A DNA stretch of 64,000 nucleotides from Balneolaceae bacterium. GTDB taxonomy: Bacteria; Bacteroidota; Rhodothermia; Balneolales; Balneolaceae. This document shows positions 10,408-16,034 of the stretch, one piece after another; position 1 is the first letter of the stretch; every line of letters starts with the position of its first letter. The stretch is taken from NCBI GenBank assembly GCA_017640665.1, contig JAEPQE010000003.1, forward strand, positions 372,001 to 436,000, given 5' to 3'. The notes under the pieces were generated by a model that was not told the DNA's origin, ran no database searches, and worked only from the letters and a program-made list of their open reading frames with translations. Made by a program: the position numbers and the translations under genes.

Positions 10408-11478
10408 TTAATTATCAGCATTATAAGCCTGAATAACTTCAGAATAGCTCATATCAACAAGTAAGCTGCGGTCATCCAATACTTTTAGGAACTCTACAGG
10501 AACATCAGCATTATATAACCCAATTATTCCGGAATAGGAGAAGGTATCTAGAAAGCCAGCTGTGTTAAGTTCATTCAAATAATTGATTGAAACACCACTG
10601 TTAAAGAGCCCGATGATTCCTGAATAGGAAAATTCATCTATGAATCCTGCTTCATTCATTTGATTTAGGTAATCAATAGAAACTGCACTATTGAATAGCC
10701 CAATTACACCTGAGTAGGAAAATTCATCTAAATATCCTGCTTCATTCATCTGATTCAGATAATTAATAGAAACGCCGCTATTATATAAACCAATAATACC
10801 TGAGTAAGAAAATTCATCTAAGTAACCGGCATCATTCATTAAGCCAACATACTCGACTGGAACTCCGCTGCTGTAAAGTCCAATAATTCCTGAATAAGAA
10901 AATTCATCCAGAAATCCAGCCTCATTAAATTGGTCAAGATATTCGATTGGAACTCCGCTACTAAAAAAACCTATGATCGCAGAATATGAGAAATCGTCTA
11001 GGTAGTTTGCATTATTCAAGCTCTCCAAATATGAAAGTGGAACCCCACTTTCATAAAGGGCACGAATACCAGTAGGACTGATATTTATGGTATAACCAGC
11101 TTGATTTGCAGCCTGAAGGTAATCTAAATAAACCTGAGGAACACCATCATTTATTGCAACAGGCGGAGCGGGAGGAGCCGGGAAATTTTGAATATCAGGT
11201 ACATCAGGAACTACAAATTCCGGGACGTTTACTTCTATATTAAAACCATCATCATCAAATACAAAAACGGAGGCGGGGCCACCAATCAGAAACCAAGCCC
11301 CCGCAATAGTGCTGAACAACAAAATTGCAATAAGGTTTCGCTTCTTACTGGGCTTTGGGTAATCAATATCATCTTCAGGTATTTGTTTTTGCCCGGGGAT
11401 TTCATTGGCTTTTTCATCTATGTACTCATCAAGATTAAAGTCTGGTGAGTTGCCGCTATTTCTAAATTTTTGTTCCAT
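10408..11478 (-). CDS. Membrane-anchored tandem-repeat protein (paralogue D)
   Basis: 356 residues, function unknown. The cytoplasmic N-terminus has the family motif PDFNLDEYIDEKA, then one membrane segment (about 48-68). A Pro/Val-rich linker (VPEFVVPDVPDIQNFPAPPA) leads to about seven tandem 30-residue repeats (from about 135 to 345). The consensus is FSYSGIIGLYNSGV then xxxYLNQMNEAGYLDE. Each unit looks like two short helices, so a helical solenoid is likely (inference). The pattern of hydrophobic residues, GV and YL resembles the GVTPEYI-type repeats found in some Bacteroidota and Acidobacteriota membrane proteins (from memory). It is the last gene of a four-gene operon, starting 5 bp after the gene before it. 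Confidence 0.8.
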   Translation of the reverse strand: MEQKFRNSGNSPDFNLDEYIDEKANEIPGQKQIPEDDIDYPKPSKKRNLIAILLFSTIAGAWFLIGGPASVFVFDDDGFNIEVNVPEFVVPDVPDIQNFPAPPAPPVAINDGVPQVYLDYLQAANQAGYTINISPTGIRALYESGVPLSYLESLNNANYLDDFSYSAIIGFFSSGVPIEYLDQFNEAGFLDEFSYSGIIGLYSSGVPVEYVGLMNDAGYLDEFSYSGIIGLYNSGVSINYLNQMNEAGYLDEFSYSGVIGLFNSAVSIDYLNQMNEAGFIDEFSYSGIIGLFNSGVSINYLNELNTAGFLDTFSYSGIIGLYNADVPVEFLKVLDDRSLLVDMSYSEVIQAYNADN

Positions 11479-11483
11479 AGTAT

Positions 11484-12350
11484 TTAATTTCCCACTTCTT
11501 GATATGCTTTTATAATACTTTCTGAACTTACTTTATCCAATAAACCAAGCTCATTAAGCTGTTGAAGAAAACTGGAAGGGACTTTTGCTTCATGGAAACT
11601 TTGAATTGAAGAATCGTTGAATTTTTCGCTCAAACCTAATCTCGTAAGTTCATCTGAATATTGAATAAAACTCGAATTCACTTCACGGGCCTCTTCAGCT
11701 ACTAATTCTGCTCCCGATAGTTCAGTCTCTCTTAGCCTTCGTAATTCTTTAAGGGCTTCCTGAATCCCAAGTTGACTCGCTTCACCTATTGCTTCACCAA
11801 ATTCTGGTGAATTGCCAATTCCTTCAAGAGCTTCCATGGCAGTTCTTAAAGCGAATTCTCTGAGTTCATTCATCTCTTCCATGTTCTCAAGGCCAGCCAT
11901 ACTGTTTTGAAGTTCTTCCAGTTCGCTTAGTCGTTCAAGCTCGGATAATTCGGAAAGACCACCAAGCTCCCGAAGAGTTTCCAATCCTTCTAGTTCAGAT
12001 AGGTTCTCCAAGTCTCTTAAATCCACAATTTGAGCACCATTTTCTGGATTAAGTTCTATCACCAAAGGAGTACCGGCTTCCGAAGACGGAGCAACATAGC
12101 CCGCCTGATATTTTTCAATTCCAAAGATATTACCATATACCTGCAGAGGACTCCAGTTATTAAAATAGAGGAGTGTCAGTATTCCAAACCCAAACAGAAG
12201 CATGGTATTTTTAAACCAACTGGATTTTTTGGGTAAAGATTCTGACTTAGACTGATAAGTTTGTTGTTCAGAGTTCGCTTTTTCCTCGATATAATTATCA
12301 AGATCAAAGTTATCAGGTTGTTGATTTCGATATGAATTTCGTTCGCCCAT
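11484..12350 (-). CDS. Membrane-anchored paralogue with coiled coil, few repeats (paralogue C)
   Basis: 288 residues, function unknown. It shares the N-terminal plan of its neighbours: motif DNFDLDNYIEEKA, a membrane segment (about 49-65, TMLLFGFGILTLLYFNNW) and the post-membrane stretch WSPLQVYGNIFG. Most of the tandem repeat region is replaced by a Leu/Glu-rich run (about 105-170; ELEGLETLRELGGLSELSEL) that should form a coiled coil. Only about one and a half repeats remain at the C-terminus (SSIQSFHEAKVPSSFLQQLN, then ESIIKAYQEVGN). It begins 2 bp after the previous gene's stop. It is probably a diverged subunit of the same assembly; a coiled coil next to repeat subunits suggests oligomerisation (inference). 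Confidence 0.78.
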   Translation of the reverse strand: MGERNSYRNQQPDNFDLDNYIEEKANSEQQTYQSKSESLPKKSSWFKNTMLLFGFGILTLLYFNNWSPLQVYGNIFGIEKYQAGYVAPSSEAGTPLVIELNPENGAQIVDLRDLENLSELEGLETLRELGGLSELSELERLSELEELQNSMAGLENMEEMNELREFALRTAMEALEGIGNSPEFGEAIGEASQLGIQEALKELRRLRETELSGAELVAEEAREVNSSFIQYSDELTRLGLSEKFNDSSIQSFHEAKVPSSFLQQLNELGLLDKVSSESIIKAYQEVGN

Positions 12351-12352
12351 GG

Positions 12353-13459
12353 TTAGTTATTTTGACCGTCGATTCGGTAGGCATCCACAACAGATTGAGA
12401 AGACATATTTTCTAGTAACCCTCTTTCATCCAAAGTCTTTAAGTATGAAATAGGAATATTATTGGTATACAACCTGGAGATAGAAGTACTTCCAAAATCG
12501 TTCATTAATCCTTGCTCAGCTAGTTCGGTTATATAGGAAGCTGGTACATTGTTAGAGTATAATGTAGAGATTGAAGTACCTCCGAATTCATCGAGAACTC
12601 CTGCGTTATTCAGTTCCTGTAGATATTCAAAAGGGATATTATTCTGGTATAACGTTGAAATGGACGTACCACCAAAATTGTCGAGCATTCCTTCTGATTT
12701 TATTCGAGTAATGTATGAAGTGGGGACATTATTCTGATAGAGGGTTGAAATTGAGGAGCCTCCAAAGTTATCTAGTGCTCCAACATCATTTAAATCACTT
12801 AAATACTCAAAAGGAATATTGTTTTGATAAAGAGTAGAAATGGAAGAGCCACCAAAGTAGTTCAGCATTCCTTCCTGCTCTATTTTTGCAATGTATTCTA
12901 ATGGAACCTGATTTGTATATAATGTTGCAATAGAAGAGCCGCCAAAATCATTGAGAGCCCCAATTCTGCCCAAACCATCAATGTACTCAATAGGAACATT
13001 ATTGTTGTATAGAGTAGAAAGGGAAGAGCTTCCAAATTCGTCTAGATACCCAAGTTCATTAAGTTCCGCCATATAATCAGTAAAGCTCATATCTAAGGTA
13101 GAAGTAGCAGATTGGCCTTCACCAAAAGTTATTTCAGGGATATCAACATTAATGTCTGGTATTTGCACATTGATAGGAGGAATTTGGACATTAATACCAC
13201 CAGACTGTTGAGTTTGAGTGATTTCATCCGCAAAAAAGAAGTTATATGCGTTTCTTGGACTCCAATCAAAGTACCAAAGAAAAGAGGCAGCACTAACTGC
13301 GCAGATCAGAATCAAATTTCTGGTAAAAGAAGTAGACTCCGGTTCTTGTTCTACCTGTTCAGGGTTTTGAGATTGATCTGATTGTTCAGCCAGATATTCA
13401 TCCAGATTGAAATCAGGATCGTTTTGTTTTGATGATTCATTAAACCGTTGTTTTGACAT
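12353..13459 (-). CDS. Membrane-anchored tandem-repeat protein (paralogue B)
   Basis: 368 residues, function unknown. N-terminal motif PDFNLDEYLAEQS, membrane segment at about 48-65, then WSPRNAYNFFFADE. A linker of alternating short strands follows (VQIPPINVQIPDINVDIPEI). About seven 30-residue repeats run from about 140 to the end, with consensus FGGSSISTLYQNNVPxxYI then 'xLNxxGMLDN'. The repeats resemble each other much more than they resemble those of the flanking paralogues. No enzyme motif is visible. The topology should be cytoplasmic N-terminus with the repeats in the periplasm. It is separated by 12 bp and 2 bp from its neighbours, so it is surely cotranscribed. Confidence 0.8.
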   Translation of the reverse strand: MSKQRFNESSKQNDPDFNLDEYLAEQSDQSQNPEQVEQEPESTSFTRNLILICAVSAASFLWYFDWSPRNAYNFFFADEITQTQQSGGINVQIPPINVQIPDINVDIPEITFGEGQSATSTLDMSFTDYMAELNELGYLDEFGSSSLSTLYNNNVPIEYIDGLGRIGALNDFGGSSIATLYTNQVPLEYIAKIEQEGMLNYFGGSSISTLYQNNIPFEYLSDLNDVGALDNFGGSSISTLYQNNVPTSYITRIKSEGMLDNFGGTSISTLYQNNIPFEYLQELNNAGVLDEFGGTSISTLYSNNVPASYITELAEQGLMNDFGSTSISRLYTNNIPISYLKTLDERGLLENMSSQSVVDAYRIDGQNN

Positions 13460-13471
13460 AATCTTGTTACT

Positions 13472-14395
13472 TTAATTGCCCTCTGCTGCATATAAATCAA
13501 CGATGTCTACAAAACTAAGCTCGTTAATTAATCCTTTGGATTTTAGTTCATTCAAAAATTCGACGGTTACACCATTTTCATAGAATTCGGTGATATCAAC
13601 AAAAGAAAGAGTTCCAATATAATCGTTTTCTTCAAGCTGTTTCAGATAGTCTATAGATACATTGGCAGAATAAAATTCGGTAATATCAACGAAAGAGAGT
13701 TCGTCAAGAATACCAATCTCGTTTAGTTGGTTCAGATATTCGAAGGGGACGTTGTTTTCATAGAATTCGGTGATATCAACAAAAGAAAGATTGTTCAGAT
13801 ATCCAGACTGTTCTAATGCCTCCAAATATTCTATAGGGATTCTGCTATCGTAGAATTCAGAAATATCAACAAAGGAAAAATTTCCTAAAAGGTTAGCTCC
13901 ATCAAGGGCTTCAATATACGAAACCGGAACTCCCGAACTGTACAACTGTCGTGCGTCGAATGGGGATAATTTCCCTTCTCCTAAAAGGTTTTTTTCTCTT
14001 AGTTCAACAATATAATCTACAGCTGAAGATCCTTCCGAAGGCTCAACGGCTGTTTCAAACTCAGGAAACTGAGGAGCTTCGGCTACCGTTGGGGTAACGT
14101 CAGGTATTACTGTTTGTGATCCTTCTTCAACTACAAAAACCTGGTTTTCTCCTTCAAAGAAATAGTTGTAAGCGTTGCGGGGACTCCAGTCAAAGGTCCA
14201 CAAAAAAATGGTAGTTATAACTGCTACCACCAGTAACGAATTTTTGATAAGATCTGAACGTTCCTCGGATACTATTTCCTCTTGTTCTTCTAATTCAGGG
14301 TGATGAGCTTTTTCGTCCAGATAACCATCCAAATCGAACTCAGAATCGAGGTCATTTTTGAGCGGATGGTTCTTGAAATTTCCTTTATGTGCCAT
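13472..14395 (-). CDS. Membrane-anchored tandem-repeat protein (paralogue A, first of operon)
   Basis: 307 residues from the ATG at 14395. The frame is open to 14542, but that extension crosses the terminator hairpin at 14471-14498 and lacks the family motif, so the internal ATG is preferred. It has SEFDLDGYLDEKA, a membrane segment (about 56-74), then WSPRNAYNYFFEGE. A spacer with EAPQFPEFETAVEPSEG precedes about five 30-residue repeats with consensus LSFVDITEFYENNVPxEYL then 'xQLNExGxLDE'. Function unknown. It heads the four-gene operon. Its nearest upstream gene on the strand is the VWA lipoprotein, but a strong terminator lies between them. Confidence 0.8.
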   Translation of the reverse strand: MAHKGNFKNHPLKNDLDSEFDLDGYLDEKAHHPELEEQEEIVSEERSDLIKNSLLVVAVITTIFLWTFDWSPRNAYNYFFEGENQVFVVEEGSQTVIPDVTPTVAEAPQFPEFETAVEPSEGSSAVDYIVELREKNLLGEGKLSPFDARQLYSSGVPVSYIEALDGANLLGNFSFVDISEFYDSRIPIEYLEALEQSGYLNNLSFVDITEFYENNVPFEYLNQLNEIGILDELSFVDITEFYSANVSIDYLKQLEENDYIGTLSFVDITEFYENGVTVEFLNELKSKGLINELSFVDIVDLYAAEGN

Positions 14396-14470: not shown

Positions 14471-14498
14471 AAAAAAGCCCTCCGGATATAGGGCTTTT
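14471..14498 (-). terminator. Rho-independent terminator of the VWA lipoprotein gene
   Basis: On the minus strand an eight-pair stem AAAAGCCC/GGGCTTTT with a ten-base loop is followed by TTAATAG. It starts 7 bp after the VWA stop codon. It separates that gene from the repeat-protein operon, whose first ATG is about 75 bp further on. Confidence 0.8.
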
Positions 14499-14504
14499 GA
14501 AGAA

Positions 14505-16034
14505 TTAGTTTTTTGACTGCCCTTGCCAGAGTAAATCGGCAAGTTCGGCTATTTTTATGAACTCAGCCCGGTAGCCCTGATCATCTTCACCTTTTCCATT
14601 CTTTGCAAGTTGATTCACCATTTCGAAAGAGGAAGAACCTTTGAACCTGGAGTCTCTGAGTAACATCCCGAACGAAGCCACTGAGGCTGCGAAGGAGAGA
14701 TTTTCAGAGAGCTCTGTGTTTACTTGTTTTTTATTGATAACTCTGGAAATTAATTTGCTGCTGTCTCCATCCGGTTGTTTGTAGCGGAGTTTCACTGTCA
14801 TGATTTCATCACTGAATCCATCAACAGGATTTGTCGGAGTTTGATACTTGAGTGGGTCTATATCGGTAAGATTGTTATCGATTTCAATTCCGACAGGAAT
14901 TACTTCATAAAGAGCGGTTACAGTATGTCCGGAACCAAGCTCTCCTGCATCTTTCTTATCATCGTTGAAGTCTTCGTCTGCCAATAAGCGGTTTTCGTAG
15001 CCAATCAAGCGATATGCCTGAACGTTCTGAGGATTGAACTCCACCTGAACTTTAACATCCTTAGCAATCGTATGAAGAGTTCCACCCATTTCCGAAACAA
15101 GCACTTTTTTGGCTTCAAGCAGATTATCGATGTAATAGTAGTTCCCATTTCCGTGATTAGCGATTTTTTCCATTTTTGAATCTTTCAGATTACCCGTTCC
15201 AAATCCAAGTACAGAAAGAAAGATCCCGTGCTCACGCTTTTTTTCAATCAATTCAACTAAAGCTTCATCATTAGAGACGCCAACATTAAAGTCTCCGTCG
15301 GTAGCAAGAATCACACGGTTATTGGCGTTTTCCCGGAAGTTTTCCATCGCTACCTGATAAGCTTGTTGAATTCCAGCTGCTCCGGCAGTAGAACCGCCCG
15401 ACTGAAGCTTATCTAAAGATTCCAGAATCGTTTCTTTATCATATCCTGAAGTTGGGGGAAGAACCAAGCCAGAACTCCCGGCATATACCACAATGGATAC
15501 ATAATCTTCTTCCCGAAGTTGATTAACCAACAATTTAAACCCTTTTTTGAGGAGCGGAAGTTTGTCGTAAGAACCCATTGAACCTGACACATCCAGTAAG
15601 AAAACCAGATTACTTGGCGGAAGGTTTTCTGCTTCAACACGTTCTCCCTGAATTCCAATTTGAACCAGATGATGTTCAGGATTCCAGGGAGCAGGAGCTA
15701 TTTCGGTATGAACTGAGAAGGGATTATTTCCTTTTGGTCCCGGATAGTTGTAATTGAAGTAATTGATCATTTCCTCAATACGAACTGCATCAGATGGAGG
15801 GAGGTAGCCGTCGGTAATCATTCGGCGAACATTGGAATAAGAAGCTCCATCAACATCAATAGAAAATGTGGATAATGGAGCTTCATAAACAAAAATGAAT
15901 GAGTTCTCGATAATCTGATCATAATCTTCATCATCGAATACTCGATCTTGTTGGTTGTGTTGAATTGAAGGGTAATACGAACCGGCACAAGCAGAAAAGA
16001 CTAATAAGCTTGCTATGAAACATATGTATCTCAT
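14505..16034 (-). CDS. von Willebrand factor A domain lipoprotein (YfbK-like)
   Basis: 509 residues. The signal ends in the lipobox FSAC (Cys16). A conserved N-terminal segment follows at about 50-130 (STFSIDVDGASYSNVRRMI, then IEEMINYFNYNYPGP). The VWA domain covers about 140-320 with an intact MIDAS motif DVSGS at 148-152 and ILATDGDFNVG. A C-terminal DUF3520-like domain runs from about 330. Members are metal-dependent protein-binding lipoproteins of unknown cellular role; the E. coli relative is YfbK. It is transcribed alone, divergent from the GH3 gene. Domain assignment is firm; the location, inner or outer membrane, is not settled by sequence. Confidence 0.92.
   Translation of the reverse strand: MRYICFIASLLVFSACAGSYYPSIQHNQQDRVFDDEDYDQIIENSFIFVYEAPLSTFSIDVDGASYSNVRRMITDGYLPPSDAVRIEEMINYFNYNYPGPKGNNPFSVHTEIAPAPWNPEHHLVQIGIQGERVEAENLPPSNLVFLLDVSGSMGSYDKLPLLKKGFKLLVNQLREEDYVSIVVYAGSSGLVLPPTSGYDKETILESLDKLQSGGSTAGAAGIQQAYQVAMENFRENANNRVILATDGDFNVGVSNDEALVELIEKKREHGIFLSVLGFGTGNLKDSKMEKIANHGNGNYYYIDNLLEAKKVLVSEMGGTLHTIAKDVKVQVEFNPQNVQAYRLIGYENRLLADEDFNDDKKDAGELGSGHTVTALYEVIPVGIEIDNNLTDIDPLKYQTPTNPVDGFSDEIMTVKLRYKQPDGDSSKLISRVINKKQVNTELSENLSFAASVASFGMLLRDSRFKGSSSFEMVNQLAKNGKGEDDQGYRAEFIKIAELADLLWQGQSKN

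Follow-up and report, generated by a model that had tools for sequence, protein, structure and literature searches.

TonB and TolA, like the inner-membrane vWA proteins that resemble YfbK, consist of a membrane helix, a Pro-rich linker and an end domain (PMC12204202). The same layout, with an end domain that is probably periplasmic, recurs in four proteins, here termed A–D, which are encoded in a 64,000-nucleotide stretch of the genome of a Balneolaceae bacterium (hereafter the window) and which differ from TonB/TolA in that their end domain is a predicted repeat solenoid. In sequence, their known relatives include the GVTPEYI repeats at the C-terminus of BlaR1-type M56 peptidases from other families of the phylum, which our family profile (A1) matched with E values of 1e-10 to 1e-18; most of the matched peptidases have a BlaI-like gene beside them.

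The four genes are transcribed in the order D, C, B, A from the minus strand, on which all window features described below lie, and span positions 14395-10408. Gene D (13472..14395; 307 aa) encodes an N-terminal motif, a transmembrane segment, a linker and five full 30-residue repeats of the LSFVDITEFY type; gene C (12353..13459; 368 aa) encodes the motif, a transmembrane segment, an IPxIxVxIP linker and seven repeats of the FGGSSISTLYxNNVP type; gene B (11484..12350; 288 aa) encodes the motif, a transmembrane segment, a segment with leucine at every third residue and one C-terminal repeat; and gene A (10408..11478; 356 aa) encodes the motif, a transmembrane segment lacking the WSP stretch, a Pro-rich linker and seven repeats of the type FSYSGIIGLYNSGV, the array forming a predicted α/α solenoid. 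We place the start of gene D at the ATG at 14395, because the resulting N-terminus aligns with that of the ortholog L038_8458 and because a longer ORF with a TTG start (14542) overlaps the stop of the adjacent YfbK gene. The gaps between the genes measured 12, 2 and 5 bp, the values given in the initial annotation. Using a repeat model built from other genera only, protein A scored 318 bits, C 250, D 165 and B 24, while the maximum among 500 shuffles of each protein was 8.9 bits. These scores and the translations bear out the shared architecture originally proposed, i.e. a common motif, one membrane segment and repeats in three of the proteins; A–D are four paralogs with repeats. The assignment of arrays to three of the four stands for A (residues 133-342, seven units; 10453..11082), C (residues 142-351, seven units; 12407..13036) and D (residues 143-292, five units; 13520..13969), as delineated by a unit scan, and has to be extended by a single C-terminal unit in B (residues 244-273; 11532..11621).

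The motif common to all four proteins, F(D/N)LDxY(I/L)xE, sits in a short N-terminal part preceding the one hydrophobic segment. In the translations, and conserved in the paralog alignment, it reads FDLDGYLDE in D (14312..14338), FNLDEYLAE in C (13385..13411), FDLDNYIEE in B (12282..12308) and FNLDEYIDE in A (11413..11439), where residues 16-24 are predicted as a short helix. The membrane segment of A (residues 45-66; 11281..11346) is helical in the structure model and coincides with a hydropathy peak at residues 49-67. In B, C and D, a WSPxxxY stretch comes directly after this segment. Across 67 homologs, the membrane helix is flanked by a mean of 2.7 K/R residues on its N-terminal side versus 0.5 on its C-terminal side; 55 of the 67 have more K/R on the N-side and nine are ties, among them C and D of the window. 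This positive-inside bias suggests that the proteins have their N-terminus inside and their repeats on the periplasmic side, as had been supposed from the outset, and that A–D are therefore probably type II (N-in) single-pass inner-membrane proteins. When the motif was sought in other proteins, the sole candidates outside the family were weak matches to the RelA/SpoT N-terminus (YNLDEYILEKA; E 0.3 in the window genome, 0.03 in genome G039), which we treated as chance. The RelA/SpoT protein of the window genome (L146 3607-5850) starts with IEKYNLDEYILEKA and thus resembles the cytoplasmic motif, a resemblance that at an E value of 0.3 may be fortuitous.

The repeat array of A is also apparent at the DNA level, where TRF detected a period of 90 with 72-78% matches. 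We modeled A with AlphaFold2 from 17 aligned sequences, those of A itself and of 16 natural homologs; structure prediction drew on sequences from the window and from loci retrieved as related to it. The model has a mean pLDDT of 80.5, and values within the array reach about 91-97; every unit of 30 residues consists of two helices of about nine residues, regularly repeated and followed by a longer cap helix at the end, while the cytoplasmic motif appears as a short low-confidence helix and the linker as disordered. A regular solenoid of two-helix units is thus predicted with confidence for A (pLDDT 92-97 in the repeats), in agreement with the initial annotation. The accompanying idea that the four proteins have related folds holds in part, in that C and D share the repeat profile with A at the sequence level, whereas B is modeled mostly as low-confidence helix with one repeat. 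The arrangement in A is also found in TAL effectors, MTERF and designed α/α solenoids, all chains of two-helix repeats, to which VIA-align gave Z scores of 5-9, within the range that its notes give for a common repeat arrangement; absence from its list proves nothing. In contrast to such shared geometry, the rmsd values are mostly large (about 12 Å for TAL), there is no sequence kinship, the periods differ (30 versus 33-35 residues for TAL) and a profile search of PDB sequences gave no TAL chain. A Foldseek search of the PDB with the A model returned no chain below an E value of 0.001 (best, 0.33). We therefore read the likeness to these solenoids as only a common repeat arrangement. Likewise, no Pfam or NCBIfam model covered the repeat in the proteins tested, and a relation of A–D to families in these collections was dropped, as the matches were sub-threshold and at chance level. 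In the papers searched for the repeat motif, neither GVTPEYI nor HGVTPE occurred.

Each paralog has its own repeat type, with the consensus FSYSaIIGLYnsgVp in A, FGgtSIsxLYxNnVP in C and lSFVxIxexYxnxVp in D. Between genera, repeat units are 54-55% identical in A and C and 39% in D, about the same as within one protein, while units of A, C and D from one genome are 30-33% alike. The arrays are therefore kept uniform inside each protein, and each paralog retains its own surface. Such paralog-specific types argue for distinct putative partners of A, C and D; by themselves they do not demonstrate contact among A–D.

Protein B stands apart. In its residues 101-165 (11856..12050), every third position is hydrophobic, in a strict leucine pattern (LExLExLE) that misfits a heptad or standard coiled coil; a spacing count gave 17 pairs at spacing 3, compared with 5.7 in shuffles and a count as high in 0 of 2000 shuffles, and the pattern is present in B orthologs, too. 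In the model of B (mean pLDDT 63), an N-terminal helix and a membrane helix as in A are followed by long low-confidence helices and by one confident C-terminal repeat with helices at residues 246-254 and 259-267. A relative of 403 residues (L105 7815-9026), which comes from a different family within the order, has a stretch similar to the LExLExLE segment.

A resemblance to GVTPEYI repeats had been noted in the initial annotation. The unit consensus, FSYSaIIGLYnsgVpidYLn.LneaGyLDe, can be set against the GVTPEYI type, isld.lvsLr.hGVtPeyir.m.eaGyknl, and the 30-residue repeat with a GV(T/S)xxY(I/L) core that marks this type was found. In the reverse direction, a profile of a single-copy GVT-repeat protein described below (A6), built without window-type sequences, matched A of the window with an E value of 2e-4 and its orthologs with 3e-8, and since matches were thus obtained both ways, the noted kinship is supported. 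A profile of M56 units alone was weaker, giving 17.6 bits for A, 7.8 for C and 7.1 for D, none of which was reached by 500 shuffles, and leaving B indistinguishable from shuffles. A–D share with the M56 tails the 30-residue period and a core GV(T/S/P)xxY(I/L)xx(L/M)xxxGY, but differ in that their first helix is rich in Ser and Tyr and in that they have, in place of the peptidase domain, a short cytoplasmic motif; PF05569 had no match in A–D and matched clearly in the relatives. No BlaI-type repressor gene was found beside the cluster, the neighbors being genes for YfbK, GH3, an MsbA-like ABC protein, NfeD and SPFH. We conclude that the A–D repeats are real, conserved and uncatalogued, and that they form a branch of a repeat class that already exists. 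The BlaR1-type context, too, has repeat proteins grouped in tandem: in L107 (754-6414), the first of three consecutive GVTPEYI-repeat genes encodes an M56 peptidase.

The family profile also matched a single-copy protein of 230 residues (MSTKFKNLRNDLED...), which is present in 60 of the 92 genomes of the window's bacterial family (C3:213566-214252 in the window genome). It resembles A–D in its GVT repeats and its one membrane helix close to the N-terminus, which in two of these proteins is preceded by an LDDYL motif, and it differs in its fewer repeats, its different neighbors and the lack of a multi-gene cluster. Its gene belongs to a conserved group that encodes a lipoprotein-like 285-residue protein, a CheY-like response regulator, the GVT protein and an outer membrane β-barrel (L113-L116, L150; around C3 212000-216000 in the window genome). 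By analogy, A–D might be signal-receptor modules, in which the solenoid would sense a periplasmic ligand, as the M56 repeat tails presumably do, and the cytoplasmic motif would relay the signal. This notion draws on the profile kinship with tails adjoining BlaI-like repressors and on the response regulator beside the 230-residue relative in several genomes, including that of the window; A–D contain no peptidase, kinase or regulator domain, and the response-regulator neighbor of the relative is missing in L117 and L118. We consider a signaling role unlikely.

Using C as the query, matches were found in 28 of the 92 genomes of the bacterial family, in eight of 21 genera, often as the syntenic D-C-B-A set, and solo paralogs occur at other places. 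A scan of the genome collection with A alone yielded no loci, and a profile of A orthologs yielded 19. The main locus comprises all four genes, D-C-B-A, in the window and in G040, G036, G032 and G033; three genes remain in G039 and G003 (C-B-A) and in G006 (D-C-A), and one or two in genera g4, g5 and g7, so that A–D are not an obligate set. The conservation of the cluster was borne out in that the D-C-B-A order is kept in other genera, where neighboring genes overlap or lie a few bases apart, and in named genomes including Balneola sp. EhC07. A quick tree of the ends outside the repeats, which is based on a short alignment and has some long branches, resolved separate groups with SH-aLRT supports of 96 (B), 95 (C), 99 (D) and 95 (A together with solo paralogs), the D group also taking in both genes of the g4 loci. 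The window genome has one solo paralog (C2:318768-319739), which adjoins a glycosyltransferase gene, as it does in several other genomes. In two genomes of the window's genus, a divergent paralog lies behind a block of FliG, TPR, MotA and MotB genes (L057 3829-10409, L059 3847-10538). In G091 (L053 9831-10603), the gene is split into two ORFs of 114 and 132 residues, perhaps through decay or a sequencing fault.

These patterns can be read in two ways. A–D could be separate periplasmic binding proteins or receptors, each with its own ligand and grouped by tandem duplication, which would not require a single complex; the variation from one to four copies per locus, the solo paralogs elsewhere and the strong differences in repeat type between paralogs fit this picture, while the preservation across genera of the D-C-B-A order and of close spacing, with overlaps in part, and the retention of B despite its almost complete lack of repeats, speak against it, and we regard it as possible but doubtful. 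Alternatively, the proteins may assemble with one another into the single hetero-oligomer proposed in the initial annotation, a reading that we base on the conserved gene order, the tight spacing and the paralog-specific repeat types.

Upstream of D lies a gene for a YfbK-type vWA protein (14505..16034; 509 aa; PF12034, PF12450, PF00092) with a lipobox-like N-terminus (LVFSAC). Its membership in this group is evident from YfbK_C, vWF_A and VWA domains with E values of 6.8e-74, 4.6e-41 and 1.3e-20, respectively. YfbK_C occurs in only 10 of the 92 family genomes (that of the window, G001-G005, G007, G036, G039 and G040), all 10 of which have the cluster, and each of the 14 YfbK genes is found no more than about 4 kb away from it (hypergeometric probability 2e-6, with kinship ignored). 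YfbK is thus a candidate for a linked partner of A–D. The 509-residue versions resemble lipoproteins, while a longer version (L120, 627 aa) has an N-terminal CarboxypepD_reg-like domain; some genomes carry both in tandem. Between the YfbK gene and D, a terminator-like hairpin followed by T residues (14473..14498; RNA fold -12 kcal/mol, z -2.07), which a consensus terminator scan did not pick up, makes a shared transcript doubtful. On the downstream side, a special functional tie to the MsbA-NfeD-SPFH genes was rejected: two genomes that lack the cluster (L152, L153) also have the MsbA-like and NfeD/SPFH genes grouped, and hence these genes only flank it.

The three-part layout shared with TonB/TolA and YfbK-like vWA proteins (PMC12204202), together with the two paralogs behind FliG-MotA-MotB blocks, might indicate that A–D are motor-driven force transducers, whose terminal domain would pull on an outer-membrane partner. 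We consider this very improbable, given that the end domain is a predicted solenoid, that the nearest neighbors of the window cluster include no MotA/ExbB-type gene and that no SHLS motif was seen in the membrane helices of the N-terminal sequences read by eye.

With an anchor inside, a flexible stalk and a solenoid outside, the layout rather points to a scaffold or tether in the periplasm that would bind a partner through its repeat face. We tentatively favor, while giving it less than an even chance, the idea that A–D are inner-membrane-anchored periplasmic binding scaffolds working as one joint envelope scaffold. In this scenario, flexible stalks, most of them rich in Pro, would hold the α/α solenoids in the periplasm, and the short cytoplasmic motif would dock to a common partner located in the inner membrane or the cytoplasm. 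A, C and D, whose repeat surfaces differ, would use these surfaces to bind either a separate periplasmic partner each or one another, B being the odd subunit of what would probably act as a single scaffold, and the YfbK vWA protein would be a likely ligand in those genera that have it. In favor of a joint scaffold are the predicted solenoid of A, the N-in charge bias, the D-C-B-A order, the repeat types, the YfbK linkage and the common N-terminal motif; against it are the genera with only one or two genes (g4, g5, g7), the two genomes with D-C-B-A but without YfbK (G032, G033), the hairpin between YfbK and D and the solo paralogs in other neighborhoods. A bolder version, which we hold to be quite unlikely, would be a new trans-envelope machine of the Balneolaceae, in which the anchored solenoids of A, C and D form a heteromeric bundle, B serves as its spacer, and the bundle, built from a repeat class that has neither a catalogued family nor a significant PDB match, engages YfbK.

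An uncatalogued repeat, which is also the tail of BlaR1-type sensor peptidases, is hereby defined as a protein family that has four conserved paralog classes and for which a fold is predicted. Isolates carrying the family are Balneola sp. EhC07 and Gracilimonas mengyeensis DSM 21985, and the cluster offers a concrete test bed for the ligands of the repeat as well as a lead on what YfbK-type vWA proteins do.
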